NCBI GenBank assembly: GCA_947652605.1
Contig: OX393577.1
Location: forward strand, 29,577,466-29,641,465
Source of the DNA: Elmis aenea
Taxonomy: Eukaryota > Arthropoda > Insecta > Coleoptera > Elmidae
Length of the DNA: 64,000 nt
Direction: 5' to 3'
Below, one piece after another: positions 4,401 through 59,920 of the stretch (positions are counted from its first letter, which is position 1; each line of letters opens with the position of its first letter). The position numbers and the translations under genes are program-made. The notes under the pieces were generated by a model, which did no database searches, was not told the DNA's origin, and saw only the letters and a list, made by a program, of their open reading frames with translations.

Positions 4401-7046
4401 GTTAGTTCCGAAGGATATATTTTTTTATTTTCTCAGTTCACAACTGTAATTTTTTTTTGTAAGGTTAAAAAATGTCGATATTATTTGCACTTTCTAAACA
4501 GGAATTGAAATATCAATGATAATCGCAAAAATAAATTAAGTAACTCCATGTACCTACACATTCTATATCCGGCAGAAAAACAAGTTAATTATTTTCACTT
4601 TAATTTACCTTGTTATTCGTTTCGCGGATATTTGCTTCGAATTGCTGTTATCTAATATAAAATATAATACCTACTACTTCCTGCGAAGGGTTGTTTATTT
4701 GTTACCCATACAAAACACGTAAACATGCTAACAATATTGATGATTTCATGTTCTTTTTAAATTTTGCATCTGTAATTTACATTTAGAAATGTTTAGGTTG
4801 GCTATGAAAGTAAGAGAAATAATGCTTAAATTATAATTATCGGTAGCTAATTATATTATTTTTCATAATTAATATGCTCATATTTTACAACAGTTTCTAT
4901 TGAAACTGAAAAATTTCTTGATATTTTGGCGAGAAATTTTTATAATCAAAGTCTTAACATAAAATATTGATAAAATGTTGGTAGAATTTGTGTCCTATTA
5001 GAAAAAATTAATGGCATAAAGTCTTATCAGTAGTAATACTAAAATTTTCGAAATATTAAAAAAACAATCAAATGATTTACCCTCACAAAACTTTCAAAAA
5101 CGAAGGTTATACATAAATCTGACAATTTTATTTCTCAATTTTTAACAGAAACAGGCAACAATATTCTTAATATACTCGAACACAAAACGTTACACAGCTT
5201 ATTTTCAGAAAATATAAATCACATTTAACAAGCACATAAGCTAACTGAGATCGTTATGTGGAAAAATAACATTCGAAATTCGAACATCTCGAAAATAAAG
5301 AATAACGATGTCACTTACAAGAAAACTTTGGAGTTTTCAAACTGCAGTTTGATCTTTTGATTTATGAAATGTTTTATGTGTATACTGAAATGTCAGAGTA
5401 TTATGCAATACATGCGTTTTTTGTTATTGACTATATTCAATATTTGTATGTGTATTCATTTTAAATCTTAAGTTAAAAAAAACAGTTTTTCGAATTTTAA
5501 AATTATTAAAGCAAATAAATGCTCGCCACTCCTGGGAAATGTTTATTTAGTTCATTTATTATGATGTAGTGATAGTGTTGGACGAGAACGTCAAATCGTT
5601 ACATTAAATTAACTGATTTGGAAATTGTATATGGTAGAACGAGTGTCTGTACTGCAAAGCAAAATTAATAATGGCAATGTGTGAATACATCATTAAAATA
5701 TCTGTATTAAGCTAATCTAGCAAAAAATTAAACAGATAAAATGACGTTGAGAAATGTATAATGGGGGTCAGATGAAAACTAACTTCCTCCTTCCGACTTA
5801 AATTTATAACAGTAAAAAACGGTAGTGAGCGATCTGAAAATTAATTTCCCCTAGAGCCATTATCTTATTTTCAACTTTCGAGCAAACTTAATTAAGGACG
5901 TGCGAGACGCAGTTAATTAGGAAAATTAATGACAATTTCAAACCAGGTTTAAAATATATCACATTATTTTCCCAGATTTCCACCACGTAAATCGCATTTG
6001 AAGCCAGATACGGGTCGTTAAATGCATATTCTAAATTATTCAAATTCCAGTCAAGGCAGTAGTGTAATGAATTATGTGTAATTTACTCCCAAATTATACT
6101 ATCAGCAGATCACCACGATATATGTACGTAATATAAAATCACGTATTACTCTGTAAGCTCTAATATTAGTTCGTCGGCGAAACGTTAATTATTTTACGAA
6201 ACCAATCAATATTAATTACTGCTGAGGAGTTGATAGGATATCAAATTACTTAGTTTCCGGAATGACACCAGGTAGGTGGAAAGTTTGGAGAAACGACGTT
6301 TTGTACAACATGTTAGAAAATATCTTCAGGATGTATGTCAACGCTTCTACAGAAACTAACATCTGAAGAACAACTGTCGATAATAATATTTGATAAAATT
6401 TTGTTCCGAAAAGTGATATAAACAGCGGAAGGCTTAAATAAGAAATCTGGTTAAAAAAAAATAAGAGTTAGTCAGGATGAATTAATCGTAAATCAAAAAG
6501 TGATGACTATCCTTCAAAATTTTATTTTTTTAACAACAAAATGTACCTATTTTTAATTTTTTACATCTTTTTTAAGTCTTATAGCAATTAAATAATATTT
6601 AAAATAAAACAAAGATTTTAAAGCTTAAACAGAATAGGCACAGGTACTTTGTGATAAATAATAAATAGAAAATAAAAACAGAGGTGTAATGACAATCATT
6701 GTGAAAATAGCTTAAAGTTTTAAAGGAGTACCTAATGGCCGATATACTACAAAAGTACAAAGTAAAGATACAACTCAAAAAGAATGTGTATTGTAAGTAT
6801 ACCATATTTGTGCTCTGATCAAACATTCTAAAATTGTTTAGACATGCAAGGCACAATGCAAGAGTTATGTCAACAGAAATGCATTAACTATATAAGGACC
6901 TTCATTACCTTTCTTGCACTTTTTCTGAATTGTTTTGGTGGTCTCGCAACTGGTCTGATCGCCTTTCTTGAGAGTCAACGTCCTCGAACGCATATTAGTT
7001 TTCGGATCACATTCTGACCAAGCTCCTTTTACGTATCTACATGGTT
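1439..7046 (-). CDS. miple: Midkine/pleiotrophin family growth factor gene (miple), 3' part, three exons
   Basis: This is a secreted heparin-binding growth-factor gene of the midkine/pleiotrophin family, called miple in insects. The coding exons run complement(6909-7046), complement(3256-3408) and, tentatively, complement(1439-1461). The first two each encode one half-domain with four cysteines, a tryptophan after Gly-Ala or Gly-Thr, and many lysines (CRYVKGAWSECD and CRYEKGTWGECN). All junctions are phase 1 with GT-AG borders, so splicing joins KKCKK to ACRYEKG without a break. Introns are about 3.5 kb and 1.8 kb and hold only small MITE remnants. The family normally has an N-terminal signal peptide and a basic linker. 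Neither was found here, so the 5' end is missing from this annotation. Family membership is very secure; the last exon is less so. Confidence 0.88.
1898..1912. repeat. Short TTAA microsatellite in the last miple intron
   Basis: A run of ttaa repeats. The rest of the 1462-3255 intron shows no coding exon beyond the annotated ones and holds one further TE fragment at 2237-2371. Confidence 0.6.
2237..2371 (-). mobile_element. Truncated DNA-transposon fragment with CAGTGGCGTAGG end
   Basis: Read on the minus strand, the sequence begins CAGTGGCGTAGGCAGGGGGG, a terminal motif common among insect DNA transposons. It continues through runs of C/G. No matching second terminus was seen, so it is a solo end. 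It sits in the last miple intron. Confidence 0.45.
3256..3408 (-). CDS. miple: miple exon, second midkine half-domain
   Basis: The exon is 153 nt with a pyrimidine-rich acceptor (cttgcttcctag) and a GT donor (gtaaatttg). With the G carried from the previous exon it starts Ala-Cys-Arg-Tyr. It encodes CRYEKGTWGECN, then a polar stretch with DKLKAN, a third cysteine, and ITKKCKPK, followed by a basic Pro-Lys tail (KVPKPTK). It matches the other midkine exon in cysteine spacing and phase, which suggests the two half-domains are duplicated exon modules. An open reading frame starting at an internal Met covers part of it and runs into the intron; that extension is not coding. Confidence 0.9.
3702..3889. 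mobile_element. hAT-like MITE in miple intron, 188 bp
   Basis: Ends are CATAAGCTTCCGCAG and CATGGGCGTCCGCAG (read inward). Identical 8-bp direct repeats CAAGGTAA lie at 3694-3701 and 3890-3897. Long G and C runs lie just inside both ends. The 8-bp duplication indicates an hAT-type insertion, and the identical duplications suggest it is not very old. Confidence 0.72.
3900..6900. other. miple intron, no further feature seen
   Basis: This is AT-rich sequence between the two midkine exons. I see no conserved coding stretch, no tandem array and no paired termini. Apart from the MITE just before it, this intron is unusually clear of recognisable TEs compared with the rest of the window. Confidence 0.5.
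6909..7046 (-). CDS. miple: miple exon, first midkine half-domain
   Basis: The exon is 138 nt, preceded on the minus strand by ttttattacag and followed by gtaatgaagg. Its phase-1 start joins AA to a preceding G, giving Glu-Pro-Cys. The encoded stretch begins CRYVKGAWSECD, continues with a TLTLKKGD segment and ends KTIQKKCKK, with four cysteines. This Cys-x9-Cys opening, the central Thr-Leu-Lys strand and the closing Lys-Lys-Cys are diagnostic of midkine/pleiotrophin domains. It is not visible as a long ATG-initiated reading frame because it is an internal exon. Confidence 0.9.
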
Positions 7047-7297
7047 CTGTAATAAAAACACACGTTTAATTTTATTAAAATCTTGTTTTTGTCAAAATGA
7101 TATTTTAAAGCAATCAATTATCAGATACTCATACTTTAAAAATGTGACAATTTTCAAAACGGACATTATTGAAATTGTCAAGGTTTTAACTTGTAACTTC
7201 TCGGTGTACTTTTGGAGGGGATCGTTATGTCTTTTTACGGTTAAATCTATCAAAAATGTACAGAATATGATAATTTACTATTAGTTTGCAATTTTTA

Positions 7298-7445
7298 GCC
7301 CGATTGCACAAAGTAACACTGGTGTTAATAAACAAGTCAATCCCTAAAATATAAGCATCAATTATGCTGCGATTATGCCTAATTGTAGGGTTATTGTGTT
7401 TAATCCCGGGGTTAATGCCAGGTTTAGTTTTTATGCAATCGGGCC
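7298..7445. mobile_element. Harbinger-type MITE, 148 bp
   Basis: Inverted termini are GCCCGATTGC and GGCCCGATTGC (read inward), flanked by TTA at 7295-7297 and 7446-7448. A 3-bp TTA duplication is the PIF/Harbinger signature. A 100-codon minus-strand reading frame crosses it but runs through the terminal repeats and is not a gene. It lies just 5' of the first detected miple exon. Confidence 0.65.
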
Positions 7446-8359
7446 TTAGTGCTCTTGAAGAAATGGTGTTAAAATAATACGCACAATGACGTGGTGTATT
7501 CAATAAAATTCTTATTGACAACTCCAATTTTATTAATTAATTAGTACCACATTAAGAAAAACACTTTTTATGGTGAGCATATCTTTTGTTACAACTTCAT
7601 CTTTAATACCACCATAAAAACATTTTATGTAAGCTGTTGTTCTAATAGCATGTTTATTAGGATTTCTATAAGGCATTTTTTAGATGGCAAAATATTTTTT
7701 CTGTAGTCAACAATTTATGTCTCAAACATGTACGTATATGTATGTATATAACATATTGCAGTTAAATTAGTATAAAAATAAGGACTGGCAAGAATATTGT
7801 AATTTAAATTGACGGGTTTTCCTTAATGAGCATGTGGTTTATATCACTTAAGCTCAAGTTGCACAATTTATGTTGATATTAGGGTTACAGTTACAGATAA
7901 CAATTATCATCGTTGTAATCAACCCTAGCGTTTACGGTTAGAAAATTAAAGTGATAGATGAAGAGAAATTAGCCAAAAGGGTTAACAATATACTCATAGA
8001 AGGTAGTTAACCCACTATTTAAACAGCTTATTACTTAATGCAAATTGCAAAAACCAAGTTAAACATAAGACATTAGAATGAGCATTAAATTAACTCTGCT
8101 TTTATAATAAAGCGAGCCAAATTTGAAAACGTTGGAACGTGTTACGTTTAAGCTCCACACTGCAATCACAATGTTAAGTTTATAAAAGCAATAACTTTGC
8201 AATTTTGCAAAATGAGTTTTAAGCAAAATAACAAGACATCGGCCTACTTAGTAAGTAAGTAAGTACGCAAAAGTTATAACTTATCGCCTGCCAACACACT
8301 ATCTCATTTTGCTTTACCATTTAAATATTTAAAATGGGTAATATGTATGGTAAGACAAA

Positions 8360-9325
8360 ATTAATAAACCAAACGACAAAAATGGAAAAAATCACAACAA
8401 AATTAGTATATAGTACGAAAAATAGGTACATCGAACGACAAATACAAGCACGACAAAAAAGATACATTTCTCGACAATTATGCTATTTGCACGACAAAAG
8501 TTATCAATTTTGTTCGTTATAATGTATTTGCTCGAATTTTATAATAAACGTATGCTTTTATATGAAATTACGTAATATATAAAAAGTGGAATAGAAACTT
8601 AGATGTAAATGTATACCTAAGTATTGGTTTATTGCATGAAATATCACAAAGTCATATAAAAAAGTATAAAAAACATATAGTCGTGACAAATTATGACATA
8701 CAATAACACATTGATTATAACATATAATATTACCTAATCCGTTTGTTTTCGTTTAAAAATTTTTTTAACCAGCTTTTAATCTAACCCTCATCATTTGGTC
8801 AGTAATACAGCATCGCGTAAAAGGTGGATACAGGTTTTTTAAAAATAAATAATGAAAATTAAGGTAAAAGGTTTGTTTTCGTTAAGAAAAAAATAACCTG
8901 ACCCTCGTAGTTGGTCATTTACTTAACTTTTTTGCCCGTTAGGACAAATATTTTGTCGTTTACTTACATCTTTTGCCGTTAAAACAAATAGTTTTGTCGT
9001 TCACTTACACTTTTTACCGATAGAACTTATATTTTGTCGTTCACCTAAATTTTTTGTCGTTAGAATACATATTTTGTCGTTTACTTACATCTTTTGCCGT
9101 TAAAACAAATAGTTTTGTCATTCACTTACATTTTTTGCCGATAGAACTTATATTTTGTCGTTCACCTAAATTTTTTGTCGTTAGAATACATATTTTGTCG
9201 TTAGAATACATATTTTGTCGTTAGAATACATATTTTGTCGTTATTTAAATTATTTACGTGCATTATATTTTACTGTCGTTTAGAATGCTAATTTTGTCGT
9301 CAATTATTTCAATTTTGTCGGACTA
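8360..9325. repeat. TTTTGTCGTT minisatellite with an opposite-strand block
   Basis: From about 8930 to 9325 the motif TTTTGTCGTT recurs about a dozen times. A 121-bp higher-order unit is repeated (starts near 8951 and 9072), followed by four 20-bp units near 9173-9240. From about 8378 to 8505 the complementary motif ACGACAAAA appears several times. The two blocks point at each other across a 0.4-kb spacer, like subterminal inverted repeats of a DNA transposon. No clear outer termini were found. Confidence 0.65.
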
Positions 9326-18270: not shown

Positions 18271-18276
18271 AATATA

Positions 18277-19354
18277 CAGGGTGTTTCTGAACGATGTAGC
18301 ATAATTTCTACTGGTGAATCTACATTGAAAAATAGGACGATTTAGCCCATCATGCCTTATAGAAAGTTGCATCGTTGCTAAGTTACAGCCCCATGAAGAG
18401 GGGATGAAAAATTGTTGTTTTATTGATAAATCAAGAACGCTTTGACCTACAACATTTATATTTGGCACGTATTCTACTTCTACAATAGGCAAGCGTGTTC
18501 TTATGCATAAGTTTGAGCGAAATCCCACCATAGGGGGCGCTACAATCGATAATAGCAGATAAATAACCTGCTGTTTTTTTTTTTGTCGATCGTAATTTCA
18601 ATTTTTTATTGTAACAGTCGGTTAGGTAGGTCTAAAATGTACATTTTTAGTAACCTAAAGTTTTTTGATAGGAGCCATCGTTTTGGAGAAAAACTCGATT
18701 TTATTAAAATATAACTCTGAGATTTATTGAAAGTATTTAACAAAAACTAGTTTACTGTGAATTAACAAACAAAACAAATGTAGTCAGATATCATATTTTC
18801 GTTTATTGTTACAATCATTTTTAGTTGTGTTAGTTATTTTTATGTTTTATATTAGTTATTTATTATGTCCAGTTTTATTTGTATAAAACATGATTTTGTT
18901 AAATATTTTCAATAAATCTCAGAGTTATATTTTAATAAAATCGAGTTTTTCTCCAAAACGATGGCTCCTATCAAAAAACTTTAAGTTACTAAAAATGTAC
19001 ATTTTAGACCTACCTATCCGACTGTTACAATAAAAAATTGAAATTACCATCGACAAAAAAAAACAGCAGGTGTTTTCTCTGCTATTATCGATTGGTGCGC
19101 CCCCTATGGTGGGATTTCGCTCAAACTTATGCATAAGAACACGCTTGCCTATTGTAGAATACGTGCCAAATATAAATGTTGTAGGTCAAAGCGTTCTTGA
19201 TTTATCAATAAAACAACAATTTTTCATCCCCTCTTCATGGGGCTGTAACTTAGCAACGATGCAACTTTCTATGAGGCATGATGGGCTAAATCGTCCTATT
19301 TTTCAATGTAGATTCACCAGTAGAGATTATGCTACATCGTTCAGAAACACTCTG
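18277..19354. mobile_element. Long-armed TA-flanked inverted-repeat element, 1.08 kb
   Basis: The element begins CAGGGTGTTTCTGAACGATG and ends in its near-perfect inverted complement (CATCGTTCAGAAACACTCTG), flanked by TA on both sides. Arms run 18277-18733 and 18907-19354 with a 173-bp loop. The TA duplication and CAGGGTG ends match Tc1/mariner-like non-autonomous elements. Mirror-image reading frames of about 100 codons occur in both arms and are by-products of the palindrome. Confidence 0.8.
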
Positions 19355-19399
19355 TATAACTCAATAAAAAATATACGTTTATATTCTTGCAATTAAGTA

Positions 19400-21811: not shown

Positions 21812-22073
21812 CCTGCATGCATAGTAAGTGGGTTTTTACGCACGGTAAGCAAAAAGCACCGTTTTTTAGAAATCATCAACGTAGGCTCACGTCAACCATC
21901 CTGCATGCATAGGAAGTGGGTCTTTACGCACGGTAAGCAAAAAGCACCGTTTTTTTAGAAATCATCAACGTAGGCTCATGTCAAACCCAACCTGCATGCA
22001 TAGTAAGTGGGTCTTTACGCAGAGTAAGAAAAAAGCACACTTTTCTAGAAATGTCAAGGTAGACATGTCAATC
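21812..22073 (+). repeat. Three tandem copies of an ~88-91 bp repeat
   Basis: Units start at 21812, 21900 and 21991. Each reads CCTGCATGCATAGTAAGTGG, then ACGCACGGTAAGCAAAAAGC, TTTTAGAAAT and CAACGTAGGCTCACGTCAA. The third copy is the most diverged. A single further copy lies at 60651-60735. The motif has no coding capacity; its origin is unknown. Confidence 0.8.
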
Positions 22074-27020: not shown

Positions 27021-27036
27021 GTCAAGCGTATGTATA

Positions 27037-28596
27037 CAGGGTGCCCATTTTTCTAACCTGTTGTATGGGTAACTCCGTTAATATTAGAGATACAGAAACG
27101 TTTAAATTAGCAAATTTGTGCAGAATTTAAAGGAAAATCTGATGCCATATTCAAATTTGACCTACGTCATCAACTTTTTGAAATATTTTGAAAAAACTGA
27201 AAAAGGTCGATTTTTTCAAACTTAAATAATTCCGGAACCATATGAGTTAGAACCAAAATAAAAATTGGCTTTTATAGATGTTTTTACGTAGATTTCAAAT
27301 ATGTTGACGACATTTTCATAGCACTCTCGATTTCCGAGTTATAGCACAAACTTGCATTTTTTTAAATGGAAGTCATAGTTGGCTATGGTCTTATTAAAAA
27401 GGTTATTTTTTTCTCGTTTCAATGATATAAGGGTTGTTATGCTTTACTTTTGTAGTTTTTCTTTAAATAAGCAAAAATCATTTTACATGTTCACTGCCTA
27501 CTAATGGATGGGAGTTATCCTGTGTTGATGTTCTTTTTTTTTTCGATGTGACATTTAAGAGTTGTCTCTTATCGTTAGTGTAGCAATTATTAGGCAGTTA
27601 CAGCCTTTTCAGTTGACACCACATTCAAGGGACAACTCCCGGGTAGATGATGTTGGTTTATAATTTACGTATTCCAGGACTCTCTCTTCATCTTCTTGCT
27701 TAAATTTAATTTTTAAACCTTTGGATTTTGTAAATGACCTGTATTTTTTTAAATTGGTTTCTAATAACGAAAATAATTTCTTTCTTGGTTGCCTCCTTTC
27801 CATAAATCTTTGCAAATACATATCACTTGAATTTCTACTATTTCTACCTATTACAAGCCTAGTAATAAAAAAGCATGTCGTTTCTTTCTTCATTAGAAAA
27901 CATTGTTTTTGAAATTTACAATAAAGTCAATCAAAAATTTTGATCAACACGAGAGAGAGATGTATACGTATAACAAACAATAAATGTTATTTGACAAATT
28001 ATGAGGTTTTGTTTTTAAAATTTGTAACTGGCTAATAACTGCTACACTAACGATAAGCGACAACTCTTAAATGTCACATCAAGGAAAAAAAAAAAAAGAA
28101 CATCAACACAGGATAACCCCCCCATCTATTAGTAGGCAGTGAACATGTAAAATGATTTTTGCTTATTTAAAGAAAAACTACAAAAGTAAAGCATAACAAC
28201 CCTTATATCATTGAAACGAGAAAAAAATAACCTTTTTAATAAGACCATAGCCAACTATGACTTCCATTTAAAAAAATGCAAGTTTGTGCTATAACTCGGA
28301 AACCGAGAGTGCTATGAAAATTTCGTTAACATATTTGAAATCTACGTAAAAAAATCTATAGCAGCAAATTTTTATTTTGCTTCTAACTCATATGGTTACG
28401 GAATTATTCAAGTTTGAAAAAATCGACCTTTTTCAGTTTTTTCAAAATATTTCAAAAAGTTGATGACGTAGGTCAAATTTGAAAAAGGCATCAGATTTTT
28501 CTTTAAATTCTGCACAAATTTGCTAATTTGAACGTTTCTGTATCTCTAATATTAACGGAGTTACCCATACAACAGGTTAGAAAAATGGGCACCCTC
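27037..28596 (-). mobile_element. Mariner-like element with long arms and transposase fragment, 1.56 kb
   Basis: TA-flanked ends are CAGGGTGCCCATTTTTC and GAAAAATGGGCACCCTC (outer right, plus strand). Arms run 27037-27602 and 28020-28596 and are highly similar. Between them lies the N-terminal part of a transposase on the minus strand. The layout is a deleted Tc1/mariner-like element whose terminal repeats are much longer than usual. A separate TA-CAGGGGTTCCC edge begins immediately to the right at 28601. Confidence 0.8.
27609..27893 (-). pseudogene. Mariner-like transposase, N-terminal helix-turn-helix fragment
   Basis: The minus-strand frame contains MYLQRFMERRQPRKKLFSLL, a Lys-rich linker, then EERVLEYVNYKPTSSTRELS and LECGVN. 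This matches the DNA-binding region of the insect transposase family linked to CAGGGTG ends, where PxTSTRxxSxExGVS is the conserved helix. The frame stops where the next helix should begin, and no catalytic domain follows. The first ~20 residues are probably not native. Confidence 0.75.
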
Positions 28597-28600
28597 TATA

Positions 28601-28800
28601 CAGGGGTTCCCAGATAACATTTCCAGCATGGGGATCTCGCTTATTATAAGAGATACATATTTTCCTAATTCATATTAATTATTCCCAAGTATGAGAGAAG
28701 CTACAATCAATTTTGAAAAGTACAACATTTCTCGTACTTCAGATGTTATAGCAAAAAATGCTTTATTCGACTTATTTGTGATGTCATTTGTATAGTTTAA
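28601..28800 (+). mobile_element. Solo TA-CAGGGGTTCCC terminus
   Basis: A third terminus-like edge abuts the previous element through TATA, followed by 'agataacatttccag'. No partner end was found; the inner limit is a guess. Confidence 0.35.
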
Positions 28801-31439: not shown

Positions 31440-31730
31440 ATCATATCTGCATTAAATTGGCGATATTAATCATTAAAAAATATTTACAATGAGTTTTCGT
31501 GTCTTACTGGCCCAGATTTAAAAGTATATTCAATAGACGAATTAGAAAAACACGCAAATGATTTTGGATTGAATATTTCAAAGGATGTTAATAAAAATAA
31601 TCTTGTTAGTGACACTGAAACTTTTAAATACCAAATTAATCAAATTCTTCCGAAAATTACAGATACTTCAATCTTGACACTCTTATCTAAATGTCATGCA
31701 CAAATGGAATATGTACGAATCGTATCCAAA
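31440..31730 (+). pseudogene. hAT transposase fragment, middle part
   Basis: The plus strand encodes a helical stretch that includes DVNKNNLVSDTETFKYQINQ and ILPKITDTSILTLLSKCHAQ. It resembles the region just before the dimerisation domain of ZMYM-type hAT transposases. It is cut at 31731 by a TA-target insertion. Stop codons occur upstream, so it is not functional. Confidence 0.6.
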
Positions 31731-31732
31731 TA

Positions 31733-33865
31733 CAGGGATGCGCAAAAGTATGGAAACAAACAAATATCTAGAACACTATTAATTATATTTCAATGAAATT
31801 TGGTATTTGACCGTTATCGTATATTCCGGATTCGATAAAAATATTGAGGTTGCGATACGACTTCCGGTTCAACCGGAAACGGACTCAAACTTTGAAATTT
31901 TAAATAGAACACCCTGTATATTTTTATATTTTTGGATTCCTCTTTAAATTTACTTCAAAAAATGTTTGAGGTTGTATGGGGCTTAAGTCGACCGTTTTCG
32001 TTAAAATCACATTTTTATGAAAATTTTGAGCTATACAGCATTGTTAAAAATTTTCAACATTTAAGAACTTTGAAATTGCAAGTAATTTTTTTTTTAAGTT
32101 TATGTTGACAATAAGCTTACTAACACTTTGCACAACGTACATTTAAAAAATATTATACAGGGCGTTTTTTACGCTTGTTCAAACTTGTACAACTTTAAAC
32201 ATCTATAACTCATTTTTCTTAAATACACCCTGTATATTTTTACACATTCTTATAGAAAATTGATTTCTCTTTCGAAAACATAAAGGCTGTTTTTCACCTA
32301 AAATTGATATTTTCCGAGATATCGCGATTTTATTGTTAATTATTAGGGCAACGTAATATTTTCAAGTAGGCTATGAAGGAAGACAGTGTTAATTTAAACA
32401 ATTGAAAGAAGAAAAAAAGAAGAAAATTATAAATTTATCTTTTCCGTACAAATTTTTGACATTTTTGTTAACGAATTTAACTCCATTAGCTTTCTTTTTT
32501 GGGGGACATTTAAAATCTAATGTTTATGCACACCCACTTGGTGATTTAGGCGAACTGAGAAACCGAATAACAAAAGAACTTGGAAGAATCTCGCCAGATG
32601 TGGTTTTAAACATTCTTACGGAATTTCGGCATAGGTTAGCCTACTGCCAAGAAGTAAATGGTGGTCATTTCGAGCATCGTATCCATTAAATTTTTGTATT
32701 CCCTATTTTGTTAATTTTTATAAGTTCGCAATATTTTCTGTTCTGCGTCCTCTTGCCCAAGAAGACCGAGAAGAAACCTTGAGCGCTTCGTATCACACGA
32801 CTTGGCAAAAATTAATCGGTCCTTATCAGGGCCAAAATATTGTTCATACAATTGAGTTTGATCGTTTACAAAGTCATAATAAAACCAATAGATAAAGTAT
32901 TAGGTACGCGAAAAAAAAACGCTGATTAAAAAAAATAATAACTGACCTGCCTTATGTTTAAATTTAAAAAAAGGTTAGGGTTGGGTCGGTTAAACCAAAA
33001 GTCGTATTGCAAACACGCAAAAAATAGTTTATAGGATTTAGTATTTGTCATCACACTGGTCCAACAAAAAAATGCATAAATAATTTAAAAAAATCTTAAT
33101 TCAAAAGTAATAATGGTAAAATTCGTTAACAAAAATGTCAAAAATTTGTACGGAAAAGATAAATTTATAACTTTCTTGTTTTTTTTTCTTTCAATTGTTT
33201 AAATTAACACTGTCTTTCTTCATAGCCTACTTGAAAATATTACGTTGCCCTAATAATTAACAATAAAATCGCGATATCTCGGAAAATATCAATTTTAGGT
33301 GAAAAACAGCCTTTATGTTTTCGAAAGAGAAATCAATTTTCTATAAGAATGTGTAAAAATATACAGGGTGTTGTGTTTAAGAAAAATGAGTTATCGATGT
33401 TTAAAGTTGTACAAGTTTGAACAAGCGTAAAAAACACCCTGTATAATATTTTTTAAATGTACGTTGTGCAAAGTGTTAGTAAGCTTATTGTCAACATAAA
33501 CTTAAAAAAAAAATACTTGCAACTTCAAAGTTCTTAAATGTTGAAAATTTTTAACAATGCTGTATAGCTCAAAATTTTCATAAAAATGTGATTTTAACGA
33601 AAACGGTCGACTTAAGCCCCATACAACCTCAAACATTTTTTGAAGTAAATTTAAAGAGGAATCCAAAAATATAAAAATATACAGGGTGTTCTATTTAAAA
33701 TTTCAAAGTTTGAGTCCGTTTCCGGTTGAACCGGAAGTCGTATCGCAACCTCAATATTTTTATCGAATCCGGAATATACGATAACGGTCAAATACCAAAT
33801 TTCATTGAAATATAATTAATAGTGTTCTAGATATTTGTTTGTTTCCATACTTTTGCGCATCCCTG
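31733..33865 (+). mobile_element. Mariner-like palindromic element nested in the hAT, 2.1 kb
   Basis: TA-flanked ends are CAGGGATGCGCAAAAGTATG and its exact inverse. Arms run about 31733-32482 and 33118-33865 and are nearly identical. Inside the arms more CACCCTGTATA and TACAGGGTGTT motifs occur (near 31912, 32157, 32227 and mirrored at 33361, 33434, 33680), as if older terminal repeats had piled up. The 0.63-kb centre carries the C-terminus of a transposase. Confidence 0.85.
32486..32689 (+). pseudogene. Mariner-like transposase, C-terminal fragment
   Basis: The frame encodes LAFFFGGHLKSNVYAHPLGD, then LGELRNRITKEL and a C-terminus with FRHRLAYCQEVNGGHFEH before the stop at 32687-32689. The motif FxWGHLKSxVY..P.....LR.RI and the final GGHFEH are the end of the insect mariner-like transposase associated with CAGGGTG ends. 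The catalytic part is absent, and the upstream part of the frame is terminal-repeat sequence. Confidence 0.8.
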
Positions 33866-33868
33866 TAT

Positions 33869-34120
33869 ATGTACGCCTTACAAAATATTTCTTTCCATAT
33901 CAGTAACCATCGCATCAGGAGAGCAATTGTTTAGCAAACTTAAATTAATAAAAAATTACCTCAGATCTTCCATGAGTCAAGAACGATTAACTGGGCTAGG
34001 TTTGTTATCGATTGAGAGGGATGTACCCAAAAGTGTTAATTTTGATGACATAATTTAACAATTTGCAACACCAAAAGCAAGAAAAATCAAACTCAAAATT
34101 ATTCGTTCTATTATTTTAAA
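33869..34120 (+). pseudogene. hAT transposase C-terminal dimerisation domain fragment
   Basis: After the nested element the plus strand encodes VTIASGEQLFSKLKLIKNYL, then RSSMSQERLTGLGLLSIERD and a Phe-Asp-Asp-Ile-Ile end. ASGERxFSKLKxIKxxLRSxMSQERLxxLxxLSIE is the hallmark of hAT (ZMYM-like) transposases. There is a frameshift near 33905 and a premature stop near 34058. Confidence 0.85.
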
Positions 34121-41350: not shown

Positions 41351-41414
41351 AACATAAATAATTCAGGTCCGTCAAGTTGGAGCTACAACATAACAAAAAA
41401 CAAAAACTTTTAAC

Positions 41415-41925
41415 GTCATAATTTTTTGCTCATTTTTTGCTAATTTTTGCTATACTTTTTAAATTTTTTGCTGGTCTCTAATAGGAGATAATTAAAAAAA
41501 AAGAATTGTAACTCCAACTTTACGCTGAGTTACATTTGCTAAAAAGTCAAAATGTTTTTAGGTCATAATTTTTTGCTCATTTTTTGCTAATTTTTGCTGT
41601 ACTTTTTAAATTTTTTGCTGGTCTCTAATGGGAGATAATTTAAAAAAAAGAATTGTAGCTCCAACTTTACGCTGAGTTACATTTGCTAAAAAGTCAAAAT
41701 GTTTTTATGTCACCATTTTTTGCTCATTTTTTGCTAATTTTTGCTGTACTTTTTAAATTTTTTGCTGGTCTCCAATGGGAGATAATTAAAAAAAAAGAAT
41801 TGTAACTCCTACTTTACGCTGAGTTACATTTGCTAAAAAGTCAAAATGTTTTCATGTCACAATTTTTTGCTCATTTTTTGCTAATTTTTGCTGTACTTTT
41901 TAAATTTTTTGCTGGTCGCTTTTCC
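41415..41925 (+). repeat. Four 147-bp tandem units, left arm of the foldback
   Basis: The motif TTTTTTGCTCATTTTTTGC starts at 41422, 41569, 41716 and 41863. Each full unit continues with TTTTTTGCTGGTCTC, GGAGATAATT and ACGCTGAGTTACATTTGC. The last unit is cut off at GCTGGTCGC. Confidence 0.9.
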
Positions 41926-42228
41926 AAGATATGTAGTTTTTTCATAATCATTATGTGCTACAAATAGGTGGTATTCTTGGATATACAACACGAATAACTT
42001 CGAATAACCAAAATGTACGTCAATGTTTTGTTCTAATAACTTTATAATAATTTATAAAGTTAACTTATATACACACTTTCAATTTATTGATATTTAAAAG
42101 TAGTTTTGTTGCAGTTTTTGTAAAAACCATAAAGTTTCTTTACATGACTATCAGTTAAGGCATTGTTACACTCCAATAAAATTGAACAATAGGTACATAA
42201 ATTCAGACCTGCAAATAACAATGCTTAA

Positions 42229-42385
42229 GACCCACCAGAAATAGGACTAGGTTCTTTTTGTAGAAATAAACATTTTTAGTTGACAATGTTACAGTTACAA
42301 CAATAAAAAAATGTTAGTACAAAAACCTAATTTTTATTCTTATGTGATGTGGGACATATGTGTCCCTTTAATGGTCTAAAGAGGG
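42229..42385. mobile_element. TTAA-flanked 157-bp insert in foldback left arm
   Basis: TTAA lies at 42225-42228 and 42386-42389. The right end reads inward CCCTCTTTAGACC followed by GGGACACATATGTCCC; the left end begins GACCCACCAG. A TTAA target and a CCC end suggest a piggyBac-type MITE. A third partial copy of the host segment at 43653-43815 begins exactly at TTAA and lacks the insert. Confidence 0.45.
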
Positions 42386-42543
42386 TTAAAAAGTCGTAAA
42401 TAGTTTTTTTTTTTAGTAAACTGAAATTTGACTTTGAGATGCAAAAAATTATTTACATCAAGATTTGTGGCTTATCGTTGCTGTATTTTTTAAATATTTG
42501 GTTGGTCTCTTAGAAAAAGTGCAACAAATCGACATAATTATAA

Positions 42544-42774
42544 CATAATTATACCAAGCTACTAAACAATATTTTCTATTTAAAGTGGAAAACAAAGACA
42601 TTTGCATCATTCCGTGATGTCGTCGCTAAAAAATTGGTCGATGTTGCGATATTGCAAAACTACATTAAAAAGATTATATTAGATTTGGTGAAAAAATTAC
42701 TTAAGTACATGGAAGAAGAAGGTTTACAGTGTTGCGGGTTCGAAGGATGTTTTTTGAGAAACAATATTTTTTAA
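42544..42774 (+). CDS. 76-codon open frame in foldback left arm, function unknown
   Basis: The frame is open from a stop at 42541 to TAA at 42772-42774. It encodes WKTKTFASFRDVVAKKLVD, a Leu/Ile/Lys-rich helical stretch (ILDLVKKLLKYMEEE) and LQCCGFEGCFLRNNIF at the C-terminus. It has no upstream ATG, but a possible acceptor (ttttctatttaaag) precedes the Trp-Lys-Thr stretch, so it may be a last exon. It is more base-balanced than its surroundings, and the same frame exists in the other arm. No family recognised. It may be a captured host exon or a remnant of the element's own gene. Confidence 0.35.
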   Translation, partial: HNYTKLLNNIFYLKWKTKTFASFRDVVAKKLVDVAILQNYIKKIILDLVKKLLKYMEEEGLQCCGFEGCFLRNNIF

Positions 42775-42964
42775 ACGGTTTTAATTATATATTAAATAAA
42801 CATATATGTACAGGTACACGTATCAACAATACATGTATGTATTGCTACAAACCTCTAATTTTAAAAATCAAATAAAACGTACGTACATATAAGCCCTCGT
42901 CACCTAAAATAATCATGCCATTTATTATACCAAAATGAAATTTATGCAAAAAGATGAACCAATT

Positions 42965-43652
42965 AAATCAAGGGCAAGTTTTAACCGTAAGACAATGAGC
43001 AAAAATTGCAAATTTCGGCAGAAGTTTTAGGTGACGTCAAGTTTTCTTAATAGTTTATAATATACTTTAAAGTATACAAATTTATTACATTCGCATCAAT
43101 TTTCAGATACACACATTTTTTAAGGGACGAAATAAACTTATCTTTAAATAACCACAAATACTAACTATAAAATTACGAACTACGATTTTGATTTATTAAC
43201 TGTTACTGCTATTTTTACTTTATTATTATATACAGAAGTAATCATTCTAATTACCTATCCTGCAAAAAAATCGAAATATAGTAACTAATTATGAAAATAG
43301 AGAAGAGAACACTGAATGCATGTTTGAAACAGAACAGAACTGGAATATCCCTGTTACAATGCAATTTAAAACAGCATGGAATTAAATGCCTAATATAAAT
43401 GAAATGCTTCATAATTTTATTGAATGTTTGGCACCCCATCATAAATTTTAATACTTGGAACTTCCAGCCACTGTTTATAAGTTACAAGTATGGGCCACTA
43501 AACATGCAAATATCAACTAACAGAATAATTATTTATTACTTACCTCAAAGTAAAAATTCAGTTCACTAAAAAAACACCAAACAATTTCGTATGTAACCCA
43601 CGGTACCTTATGACATTGAAAAAAAAAAACGCAACAAAATTATTCTTTAAAA
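42965..43652. other. Unique part of the foldback spacer
   Basis: AT-rich, with one 63-codon minus-strand frame (43251-43442) without recognisable domain. No transposase motifs seen. Confidence 0.4.
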
Positions 43653-43815
43653 TTAAGCATTGTTATTTGCAGGTCTGAATTTAGGTTTTGTTCAATTTTA
43701 TAGGAGTGTAACAATGCCTTAGCTAATAGTCATGTAAAGAAACTTAATGGTTTTTATAAAAACCGCAACAAAACTACTTTTAAGTATCAACAAATTGTAA
43801 GTGTGTATATAAGTT
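43653..43815 (-). repeat. Extra partial copy of an arm segment in the foldback spacer
   Basis: This directly repeats 44552-44713 (shared 'gcattgttatttgcaggtc', 'gtgtaacaatgcctta' and 'gtgtgtatataagtta'). It starts at the TTAA bordering the 157-bp insert and is more diverged than the arms are from each other, so it is probably an older arm remnant. Confidence 0.6.
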
Positions 43816-44005
43816 AATTGGTTCATCTCTTTGCATAAATTTCATTTTGGTATAATAAATGGCATGATTATTTTAGGTGACGAGGGGTTATATGTACGTA
43901 CGTTTTATTTGATTTTTAAAATTAGAGGTTTGTAGCAATACATACATGTATTGTTGATACGTGTACCTGTACATAAATGTTTATTTAATATATAATTAAA
44001 ACCGT

Positions 44006-44236
44006 TTAAAAAATATTGTTTCTCAAAAAACATCCTTCGAACCCGCAACACTGTAAACCTTCTTCTTCCATGTACTTAAGTAATTTTTTCACCAAATCTA
44101 ATATAATCTTTTTAATGTAGTTTTGCAATATCGCAACATCGACCAATTTTTTAGCGACGACATCACGGAATGATGCAAATGTCTTTGTTTTCCACTTTAA
44201 ATAGAAAATATTGTTTAGTAGCTTGGTATAATTATG
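44006..44236 (-). CDS. Same 76-codon open frame in foldback right arm
   Basis: The inverted copy of the 42544-42774 frame has the same length. I found no difference by eye. Identity could reflect recent arm duplication or gene conversion rather than selection. Confidence 0.35.
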   Translation of the reverse strand, partial: HNYTKLLNNIFYLKWKTKTFASFRDVVAKKLVDVAILQNYIKKIILDLVKKLLKYMEEEGLQCCGFEGCFLRNNIF

Positions 44237-44394
44237 TTATAATTATGTCGATTTGTTGCACTTTTTCTAAGAGACCAACCAAATATTTAAAAAATACAGC
44301 AACGATAAGCCACAAATATTGATGTAAATAATTTTTTGCATCTCAAAGTCAAATTTCAGTTTACTAAAAAAAAAAACTATTTACGACTTTTTAA

Positions 44395-44551
44395 CCCTCT
44401 TTAGACCATTAAAGGGACACATATGTCCCACATCACATAAGAATAAAAATTAGGTTTTTGTACTAACATTTTTTTATTGTTGTAACTGTAACATTGTCAA
44501 CTAAAAATGTTTATTTCTACAAAAAGAACCTAGTCCTATTTCTGGTGGGTC
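44395..44551. mobile_element. TTAA-flanked 157-bp insert in foldback right arm
   Basis: This is the mirror copy of the 42229-42385 insert, same length, flanked by TTAA at 44391-44394 and 44552-44555. Presence in both arms means it entered before the arms became identical. Confidence 0.45.
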
Positions 44552-44879
44552 TTAAGCATTGTTATTTGCAGGTCTGAATTTATGTACCTATTGTTCAATT
44601 TTATTGGAGTGTAACAATGCCTTAACTGATAGTCATGTAAAGAAACTTTATGGTTTTTACAAAAACTGCAACAAAACTACTTTTAAATATCAATAAATTG
44701 AAAGTGTGTATATAAGTTAACTTTATAAATTATTATAAAGTTATTAGAACAAAACATTGACGTACATTTTGGTTATTCGAAGTTATTCGTGTTGTATATC
44801 CAAGAATACCACCTATTTGTAGCACATAATGATTATGAAAAAACTACATATCTTGGAAAAGCGACCAGCAAAAAATTTA

Positions 44880-45515
44880 AAAAGTACAGCAAAAATTAGC
44901 AAAAAATGAGCAAAAAATTGTGGCATGAAAACATTTTGACTTTTTAGCAAATGTAACTCAGCGTAAAGTTGGAGTTACAATTCTTTTTTTTTAATTATCT
45001 CCCATTGGAGACCAGCAAAAAATTTAAAAAGTACAGCAAAAATTAGCAAAAAATGAGCAAAAAATGGTGACATAAAAACATTTTGACTTTTTAGCAAATG
45101 TAACTCAGCGTAAAGTTGGAGCTACAATTCTTTTTTTTAAATTATCTCCCATTAGAGACCAGCAAAAAATTTAAAAAGTACAGCAAAAATTAGCAAAAAA
45201 TGAGCAAAAAATTATGACCTAAAAACATTTTGACTTTTTAGCAAATGTAACTCAGCGTAAAGTTGGAGCTACAATTCTTTTTTTTAAATTATCTCCCATT
45301 AGAGACCAGCAAAAAATTTAAAAAGTACAGCAAAAATTAGCAAAAAATGAGCAAAAAATTATGACCTAAAAACATTTTGACTTTTTAGCAAATGTAACTC
45401 AGCGTAAAGTTGGAGTTACAATTCTTTTTTTTTAATTATCTCCTATTAGAGACCAGCAAAAAATTTAAAAAGTATAGCAAAAATTAGCAAAAAATGAGCA
45501 AAAAATTATGACGTT
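44880..45515 (-). repeat. Five tandem units, right arm of the foldback
   Basis: This is the inverted counterpart of the left array, with the GCAAAAAATGAGCAAAAAAT motif five times at about 147-bp spacing. The one-unit difference from the left arm explains why the right arm is about 147 bp longer. Confidence 0.9.
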
Positions 45516-46316
45516 ACAAGTTTTTGGTTTTTGTTATGTTGTAGCTCCAACTTGACGGACCTAAATAATTCAACAGAAAATTCCATTGTAATAAATTGCT
45601 GACGGGCGTCGTTTTTCAGACAAAATTTTGTGTAAAAAAAACTTTTTTGCATTACCTATTATTATTTACATTTTATACTGATAATTATTGTTACGTTTTA
45701 TGTGGTTTATCAACTGAGTTTTGGAACAAATGCGTAAATCAACAGTGGTGGTTAATACATATGTAATATATGATGCAATAGTGTATGACTCTGTTTTCAT
45801 ATAAACTAATTAAACTAACTTTTACAATAGACTCAAACCATAATACTACAGCAGATATTACAAATAAATCGGGTATCTGAGCGTTATCGTATTTTTCGGA
45901 TTCAATGAGAATATTAAGGTTGCAATACGATTTCCGGTTCAACCTTGTATATTTTCACATTTGCGGATTCCTCTTCAAATTTACTTTAAACAGTCTTAAA
46001 AAGGTTATATGGCTCTATATTCAACCGTTTTCGTAAAATTTACATTTAGGTATTGAAATTTTTGAGCGAAACGGCACTTTTTTTAGCATTTAAGTTTTTT
46101 AAAAAGGCAGTAAAATTTTGTTAAAAATTAGATTGACAGTACATTAATTAACACTTTGCACTAGCTACTTTTTCAAAATATTATACAGGGTGTTTTTTAC
46201 GCTTGGTCAAATTTGTGAAAATTTAAACTTCTATAACTCAATTTTCTTAAATACAACATCCTATATGTTTTTACATTGTCTTATAAGAAATTTGATTATC
46301 TATTAACATTTAAGCT

Positions 46317-53123: not shown

Positions 53124-54198
53124 CAGGGTGTTTCTTAAGTATTGCAAAAAAATTCAGGAGGTGATTCATTATTGAAAATTAAGGGGGGTCTTACATAAAA
53201 ACAAAATTCCTTAGACGTCTCCTTTCGAAGTTACACCACCCCCCTAAAGGGGCGCGATAAAATTAGGTTTTTATTTTATTTCTCAAATTTCGATAAATTT
53301 AGGAAAATGATATTTGGTAGATGTTTTATACTTATTAAAAGGTTTCCCATAGTAATATTTTGAATCATCTCCCAGCTCCACAGGGGGCTGAAAAGTGCGA
53401 CCCCTGTTGGTTTTCTTATCAGAACTTTTTGGTGGGTTAAAATTTTTTAATTGAAAATTTTTTTTTTAAGCTTGATTTATTTAGAAACTTTATTTATTCT
53501 TTAGTTTATCTCGTAAAACCTACCGTTTTCGAGTAAAAAATATAATAAATAAACGTAAACCATCAAATATTCCAATATAAAACGATTCATTTTGGTGGTT
53601 GCCATGGTTTGTTTATGTTCATGTTGGGTAGAATTGACGGGTGTAATTTATTTTGAGGTTAACGTGGCGACAACGCTATAACGCCCGTCGATTCTACCCA
53701 ACATGAACATAAACAAACCATAGAAACCACCAAAATGAGTCGTTTTAAATTGGAATATTTGATGGTTAATGTTTACTTACTTTATTTTTTACTCAAAAAC
53801 GGCAGGTTTTACGAGATAAACTAGAGAATAAATAAAGTTTCTAAATAAATCAAGCTCTGAAAACAAATATTTTTAATTAAAAAATTTTAACCCACCAAAA
53901 AGTTCTGATAGGAAAACCAACAGGGGTCGCACTTTTCAGCCCCCTGTGGAGGTGGGAGATGATTAAAAATATTACCATGAGAAACCTTTTAATAAGTATA
54001 AAACATCTACCAAATATCATTTTTCTAAATTTATCCAAATTTGAGAAATAAAATAAAAACCTAATTTTACCGCACCCCTTTAGGGGGGTGTAACTTCGAA
54101 AGGAGACGTCTAAATATATTTTTTTTTAATGAAAGACCCCCCTTAATTTTTGACAAGGAATCACTTCCTGAATTTTTTGCAATACTTAAGAAACTCTG
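53124..54198. mobile_element. Long-armed TA-flanked palindromic element, 1.08 kb
   Basis: It begins CAGGGTGTTTCTTAAGTATT and ends with its inverse (AATACTTAAGAAACTCTG), with TA on both sides. Arms run 53124-53643 and 53682-54198 around a loop of about 38 bp, so almost the whole element is a hairpin. No transposase. It is of the same style as 18277-19354, but the arm sequence is different apart from the CAGGGTGTTTCT end. Confidence 0.82.
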
Positions 54199-58863: not shown

Positions 58864-59920
58864 CAGAGTGGTCCACTATTTTGTAGCAGGACTTTAACAG
58901 TCGATGCAAAAACTTATTTTAAAGCGAATATTCCATATCAACATGGGTCCATAAACGCTTATATTTAAAGATACAGGGTAATGAAATTTTCGAAAAAAAA
59001 AACGATAATTTTCAACCGTTTCTCAACCAGTAGATATATTTAAACCAAATTTGATATACAGCACCACCTTATAGGTTACCACATTCAGTAAGAATGCCAA
59101 GCCCCACAAGCAACCAGTGGCGGAGTTGCAGGCATTCAGTTTCAATAAATTTTATAAAAAACGAGTATGGCCCTGTTTAAAATCAAACCTGGACTTGTTT
59201 TTCGGTGAAGCATTTTATTTTAAACAAAAAGTGTATCTCGACTTTTCTTCGTATCTACCACGATTTGGCGCCAAATATGATTTATTTTACTATTCTCGCG
59301 AAAAATTTGCTCATAAGTTCGATCTAAAAAATATCGCGAAAAACAGAAAATTGCAAATTGCCGAGTAAATGCTCATTTATCGTTAATTTAGCGGAAATTC
59401 TTCCCTCATTATTAGCATGTTCTGTTATTAAAAACTGTAAAAATTAGTAATTAATTCTTTATTTCGAATATTAGCGATATTTTTAGATGAAAGTTATGAG
59501 CAAATTTTCGCGAGAATAGTAAAATAAATCAAATTTCGCGCCAAACCGTGGTAGATACGAAGAAAAGTCAAGAGACAGTTTTTGTTTAGAATAAAATGCT
59601 CTACCGAAAAACATATTCAAGTTTGATTTTAAACAGGACCGTACTGGTTTTTTATAAAATTTATTGGAACTGAACCCCCATAATTCCGCCACTGGTTGCT
59701 TGTAGGGCTTGAAATTCTCACCGAATGTGGTAATCTGTAAGGTGGTGCTGTATACCAAATTTGGTTTTAATATATCTACTGGTTGAAAAACGGTTAAAAA
59801 TTATCGATATTTTTTCGAAAATTAAGCGTTTATGATTGCATGTTGATATAGAGTATTCGCTTTAAAATAAGCTTTTGTATCGACTGTTAAAGTCCTGCTA
59901 CAAAAAAGTGGACCACCCTT
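58864..59920. mobile_element. Long-armed TA-flanked palindromic element, 1.06 kb
   Basis: The left end CAGAGTGGTCCACTATTTTG and right end AAGGGTGGTCCACTTTTTTG (read inward) lie next to TATA. Both arms share 'gcaggactttaacagtcgat' and further sequence almost to the centre near 59400. Reading frames of 83 and 91 codons in the two arms encode the same peptide (SSYLPRFGAK) on opposite strands; this is a palindrome artefact unless shown otherwise. Confidence 0.78.

Follow-up and report, generated by a model that had tools for sequence, protein, structure and literature searches.

Positions 41365–45562 of a 64,000-nucleotide stretch of the genome of the beetle Elmis aenea (contig OX393577.1, positions 29,577,466 to 29,641,465 of the forward strand; the window) hold a large inverted repeat flanked by a 9-bp duplication, which raises the question of what kind of element this is and by what means it could have moved. 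We conclude that it is very probably a non-autonomous, internally deleted DNA transposon of the NOF-FB/Rehavkus kind, that is, Mutator-like with 9-bp target-site duplications. The family is new and its kind is already known; it is set beside Rehavkus by the published description of that group and not by sequence. The element is ordinary in kind, and its value lies in the relatives found with it, which reveal how its arms are laid out: a single genome holds non-autonomous copies, a coding copy of 10 kb and a paralogous family whose frame of 1,008 residues is intact.

The window element and its dispersed copies

The element is 4,198 bp long, begins with AGGTCC, ends with GGACCT and has an exact AAATAATTC on either side (Table 1); the foldback boundaries and 9-bp duplication claimed by the initial annotation are correct to the base. 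The arms, given there as 1.6 and 1.75 kb, measure 1,602 and 1,749 bp. Their best ungapped pairing extends over 1,572 nt at 99% identity, and global alignment of the two ends yields 9 mismatches in 1,605 columns apart from one 147-bp gap, in keeping with the near-identity first noted; a further 45-bp gap in the end-to-end alignment sits at the inner edge, outside the arms. Long inverted arms with tandem repeats of variable number place the element in the foldback structural class. The longest open reading frame (ORF) between 41300 and 45650 encodes 63 residues and is the only one of at least 60, and the window copy has, as had been supposed, no recognised transposase.

The host genome (G000; 516,402,565 bases in 302 contigs) was searched with a 28-bp terminus pattern at up to three mismatches, the reversed pattern serving as control. 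The terminus was found at 210 places (107 forward and 103 reverse, 100 of the 210 being listed), compared with 0 and 0 for the control, and the family comprises roughly 100 two-ended copies. Exact 9-bp duplications flank 22 of the 26 paired copies, and all 22 sequences are different; when flanks were mismatched between copies, none of the 650 pairs reached 8 of 9 identical positions. The pair count leaves out the single-ended copies L020 (the same place as L037), L025, L027, L029, L030, L035, L036, L048, L051 and L058. From the 210 matches against none in the control, and from 22 of 26 duplications against 0 of 650, we conclude that the element is not a product of chance. Of the checks proposed in the initial annotation, those for more copies with these termini and for 9-bp duplications around them both bear out its claim of a mobile element, and the 210 matches contradict its first refuting case, in which these termini would occur in no other copy.

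Longer copies and a predicted transposase gene

The same ends delimit longer copies, namely L010 (7,883 bp), L009 (7,634 bp, including a 200-N gap) and the longest relative, a copy of 10,088 bp on C7 (C7:40516375-40526462). On either side of one junction, at 43320–43323, the window copy runs collinear with L010, and ATGT is common to both edges there; the window copy lacks 3.8 kb relative to L010 and 6.0 kb relative to the C7 copy. From the collinearity and the ATGT at this single junction, we conclude that the window copy is, as judged from sequence, an internal-deletion derivative, a longer copy minus its interior. One particular deletion junction occurs in 14 records of short copies, corresponding to 11 genomic sites. 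It is shared by at least 10 of the 26 pairs, a lower bound since 9 of the 26 cover only about 1.5 kb inside each end; the left flanks of these 10 are all different, and 8 of the 10 have an exact 9-bp duplication. Because copies with the shared junction have different flanks and their own 9-bp duplications, they represent a deletion derivative that has spread by transposition, presumably driven in trans. A transposase from a complete copy would bind the termini of deleted copies and move them in a cut-and-paste reaction whose cuts are staggered by 9 bp; the interior may have been lost through interrupted gap repair following excision.

L009 (C3:31765448-31774281) is a near-perfect palindrome; when reverse-complemented, its left half matches the right half of L010 at 99.8%. 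Its halves meet at the 200-N gap, and it is either a foldback of giant size or a product of assembly.

On the minus strand, the C7 copy has an open first exon of 624 residues, followed by a GT...AG intron of about 412 bp and an exon reading IPLWTAIM...VESYFNDLKHR; further segments hold a zinc finger (Znf_SCAND3, above cut-off) and a C-terminal domain. By its predicted exons, this copy keeps a multi-exon transposase gene and is the full-length relative with a transposase for which the initial annotation had recommended a search. In the host genome, where all 63 candidates were scored, exon 1 has 49 matches, with the C7 copy the only near-identical full-length one. The others include a remnant of 41 residues in L010 (95%) and more diverged relatives with 23–46% identity, some spanning residues 9–622 and some with open frames of about 930–1,045 residues.

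Homologues from elsewhere number at least five, plus one, plus at least four new, the searches behind the five and the four new having scored the best ~8,000 candidates by shared words. Residues D344 and D416 are invariant in six aligned sequences. Two host ORFs match Znf_SCAND3 above cut-off, and the relative P0002 matches PHD_2 below cut-off only. Searching sequences in the PDB with the transposase profile gave 0 matches, and none of 52 pattern-matching stretches in viral contigs was confirmed as a viral relative. A 615-residue relative of the transposase (P0001, 41%) is filed under a Flavobacteriia bacterium metagenome-assembled genome; this is probably animal DNA that entered by contamination or misbinning.

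The structure model of one relative, P0009, has a predicted DDE transposase core together with a USP-like cysteine-protease fold. When this model was compared by VIA-align 2, ISCth4 was the only transposase among the 50 rows listed. In the titles and abstract openings listed, most subscription papers being outside reach, we found no USP/C19 domain reported for Rehavkus or foldback transposases.

Lineage of the element

Drosophila FB/NOF-FB elements have foldback arms with tandem repeats and a 9-bp duplication. Among the transposase homologues listed, P0003 is the sole one bearing a transposon name, 'NOF-FB transposable element, partial [Clarias magur]', which is the record's own (E 1.1e-80; 32% over 99%). 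The dispersed foldback copies, their 9-bp duplications and the DDE transposase predicted in fuller relatives agree with the Foldback/Mutator-type mobilisation first suggested.

Rehavkus, an outgroup or basal member of the Mutator-like elements, is described as having a PHD finger, duplications of 9 bp and, ahead of its 3′ terminal inverted repeat (TIR), a minisatellite (PMC6446971). Rehavkus-1_TC from Tribolium castaneum measures 9.5 kb; its inverted termini contain 164-bp units, mostly in arrays of five and eight (PMC10218199). The likenesses to the present family extend to the 9-bp duplications (PMC6446971), found here in 22 of 26 pairs and in a paralogue on C2 described below, and to the minisatellite adjoining the terminal repeat, here 147-bp units in both arms and also in the C2 paralogue. 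They further include the unit size (147 here, 164 bp there) and full length (10.1 and 9.5 kb; PMC10218199), and a zinc finger that accompanies the transposase (PMC10218199, PMC6446971). The arms differ, running from 1.3 kb in the C7 copy to 1.75 kb in the window compared with a published TIR of 26–400 bp, a range that is descriptive rather than defining and that is exceeded by the five-to-eight 164-bp arrays of Rehavkus-1_TC. The 'undescribed element family' of the initial annotation is not supported in the strong sense, the fuller copies encoding a transposase with a NOF-FB-named homologue and the published anatomy of Rehavkus being similar (PMC10218199).

Tetris of D. virilis and Tm1 of Meloidogyne resemble the family in their foldback-like arms, variable tandem units and 8–10 bp duplications, but their units are of about 220 and 14 bp, respectively, rather than 147 bp. 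As excerpted, the description of Tetris has no transposase found and that of Tm1 has one described as Phantom-like. Foldback elements are a source of inversions and of satellite DNA, and the autonomous partner can be missing, for example in Tetris (PMC4079207).

The protease fold has its parallels elsewhere. Proteases of the OTU or Ulp1 type occur in Ginger1 transposases, and Ulp1 is also found in some Mutator elements; the same paper cites a C19 domain alongside a Trichomonas vaginalis transposase (PMC2836005). Like these Ginger1 and Ulp1-Mutator elements, the modelled relative would join a transposase to a ubiquitin-pathway cysteine protease, a pairing sometimes accompanied by PHD (PMC2836005); unlike their OTU or Ulp1, its predicted fold is USP/C19-like. 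The excerpts of Rehavkus descriptions used for comparison make no mention of such a fold. If confirmed, it would be a further case for the link that has been proposed between transposition and proteases of the ubiquitin type (PMC2836005).

Several points weigh against the assignment to NOF-FB/Rehavkus. It draws on one named homologue together with anatomy, and the structural matches come from the relative P0009, not from the host's own protein. In Foldseek, moreover, the P-element transposase 6p5a (E 8.5e-05) ranks above ISCth4 (E 5.3e-04) as a match to the P0009 model. An AlphaFold model of P0002, of low confidence (mean predicted local distance difference test score, pLDDT, 55) and carrying no weight, gave nothing in Foldseek at E ≤ 0.001. 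The relative P0010 has N at the second aspartate, and Pfam reports no transposase domain in the host ORFs or in six relatives. Finally, four pairs (L024, L028, L044/L045 and L046/L047) are without an exact 9-bp duplication; L044/L045 has 7 bp in common and the right end of L024 is damaged.

Galileo, with its THAP-domain transposase and 7-bp duplications, belongs to the P superfamily, a different transposase superfamily. That a superfamily or clade other than the one preferred here, such as the P superfamily (Galileo-like) or the Phantom Mutator-like elements, has acquired foldback arms by convergence would accord with the rank of 6p5a. It would also accord with the appearance of foldback anatomy in several superfamilies (PMC4079207) and with the 8–10 bp duplications, and in some cases minisatellites, of Phantom elements (PMC6446971). 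We nevertheless regard this as unlikely. The duplications are of 9 bp in 22 of 26 pairs and not of the 7 bp of Galileo, one pair sharing 7 bp; NOF-FB is the only transposon name among the homologues listed; ISCth4 stands alone among transposases in the 50 VIA-align 2 rows listed, which leave room for unlisted families; and the layout of Rehavkus-1_TC is similar. That the repeat is an inverted duplication unable to move, or an artefact of assembly, with a 9-bp repeat beside it by chance has a negligible probability, for although long palindromes such as L009 around its 200-N gap are prone to misassembly, the window copy is free of N and its termini recur at 210 places, with 9-bp duplications in 22 of 26 copies.

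Tandem units and the inverted terminal motif

The window element has four 147-bp units on the left and five on the right, as the initial annotation had counted, and every unit contains three TTTTTTGC. Tandem Repeats Finder (TRF) gives copy numbers of 3.5 and 4.4, since the innermost unit resembles the others only in part. Units R2, R3 and L2 are mutually identical (0/147 differences), which makes the fifth right unit look like a probable recent duplication of a single unit. Across the family, units per arm range from 2 to 7, and left and right counts are unequal in 16 of the 26 paired copies. These observations support slippage or unequal exchange of units, as originally proposed, and unit number would drift by either route. 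A reading of 147 bp as a nucleosome length or as 14 helical turns was not pressed, the unit of Rehavkus-1_TC being 164 bp.

A paralogous element of 7,783 bp on C2 (C2:42795646-42803428; L060+L059) has an uninterrupted frame of 1,008 residues that is 35% identical to C7 exon 1. Its ends carry AGGTCCGTGAAGTTAGCCCC on both sides, and the flanking 9-bp duplication CTATAGCTT is present twice. Its tandem units also have a period of 147; the left arm has 2.3 of them (TRF consensus 154 bp) and the right arm 3.3. Outside the units, short arm parts (72–125 columns) align with the window element at 78–89%. Between the units of the two families, blastn gave short chance matches only (best E 0.13), and the common period of 147 is therefore without support from alignment. 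A segment of 1,211 bp is 99.8% identical between the C7 element (6567–7777) and the paralogue element (1526–2736), from families with proteins about 35% alike; in C7 it comprises the region upstream of exon 1 and the first 101 bp of the exon, and it looks like a recent sequence exchange or capture between the families.

Full units carry an inverted copy of the terminal motif, which matches at 17–18 of 24 positions in the window element (more weakly in L3, with 3 mismatches in 19) and at 20–21 of 24 in the C2 paralogue. When the letters of the first unit region were shuffled 2000 times, no shuffled sequence scored as high as the real one in either family. The left arm has its first inverted motif starting at 138 bp in the window element and at 137 bp in the paralogue, the next following at +147. 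Among the 52 arms of the 26 paired copies, the motif starts 130–150 bp from the end in 51, the exception being the right arm of L026. A genome-wide pattern of a terminus with its inverted copy was found at no fewer than 58 places, compared with none when the pattern was reversed; the count is a lower bound because the spacing usual in the window family falls outside the gap limit of the pattern, and the window copy is not among the 58. Of the six matches listed, two have a third terminus type, AGGTCCGTTAAGTTAGCCC, in which the inverted motif is arranged in the same way (C1:6398455-6398586 and C1:9743524-9743656; matched span 132–133 bp).

Taken with a paralogue of the same design, its own terminus and a period of 147, the unit motif suggests that the arms are arrays of putative transposase-recognition sites. 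Each full unit, with its inverted terminus copy, may thereby serve as an extra binding site. The transposase of Galileo binds sites within its tandem repeats, and the same 2013 paper describes binding to tandem units as untested for Foldback and Phantom elements (PMC3688188); in the present genome this question becomes directly testable. We infer a binding role with caution, since the shuffles preserve letter content alone and the motifs may be leftovers of arm growth. Indeed, the units could be neutral minisatellites that grow by slippage, with the motif a by-product of arm growth. This explanation, which bears on the binding-site part only, falls somewhat short of an even chance. It is favoured by the variable and unequal unit numbers and by the recent duplication evident in R2, R3 and L2, and an arm copied from a terminus would hold such motifs without their having a function. 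It sits less well with the position of the first motif, kept at 130–150 bp in 51 of 52 arms, with two families whose units align no better than by chance and whose motifs each follow their own terminus at offsets of 138 and 137 and a step of 147, and with the third terminus type found by the same pattern.

We therefore offer the combined proposal tentatively, as possible but not probable: phased arrays of recognition sites, in which the unit motif tracks its own family's terminus at a constrained offset of 137/138 and then at +147 while the remainder of the unit has diverged too far to be aligned, would be paired with a transposase that fuses a DDE core to a zinc finger and to a USP-like protease acting on ubiquitin or SUMO. 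If it is true, the predicted protease part may shield the transposition complex or direct the repair that follows excision.

Table 1. Features of the foldback element and its flanks, in window coordinates
Feature	Position	Strand
Left target-site duplication AAATAATTC	41356..41364	+
Left foldback arm, 1,602 bp	41365..42966	+
Left 30-bp terminus AGGTCCGTCAAGTTGGAGCTACAACATAAC, identical at both element ends	41365..41394	+
147-bp tandem units L1-L4; L4 similar in outer part only	41395..41982	+
Inverted terminal motif in L1, 17/24	41502..41525	-
Inverted terminal motif in L2, 18/24	41649..41672	-
Inverted 19-bp terminal motif in L3, 3 mismatches	41800..41818	-
847-bp middle, collinear with both interior edges of longer copies	42967..43813	.
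ATGT microhomology at internal-deletion junction	43320..43323	.
Right foldback arm, 1,749 bp	43814..45562	-
Five 147-bp units, R5 (inner) to R1 (outer); R2 45239-45385, R3 45092-45238	44798..45532	-
Terminal motif in R4, inverted relative to right terminus, 17/24	44961..44984	+
Terminal motif in R3, inverted relative to right terminus, 18/24	45108..45131	+
Terminal motif in R2, inverted relative to right terminus, 18/24	45255..45278	+
Terminal motif in R1, inverted relative to right terminus, 17/24	45402..45425	+
Right 30-bp terminus	45533..45562	-
Right target-site duplication AAATAATTC	45563..45571	+

Elsewhere in the window there are five other inverted-repeat (foldback- or miniature inverted-repeat transposable element-like) stretches of about 0.85–2.1 kb, at 18273–19358, 27031–28602, 31727–33871, 53237–54090 and 58865–59919. 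A blastn search with the element at 41365–45562 gave no match inside these five, three of which have ends resembling TATACAGGG. The window also contains tandem arrays at 8914–9243, with periods of 20, 40 and 121 bp, and at 21812–22052, with a period of 88 bp.

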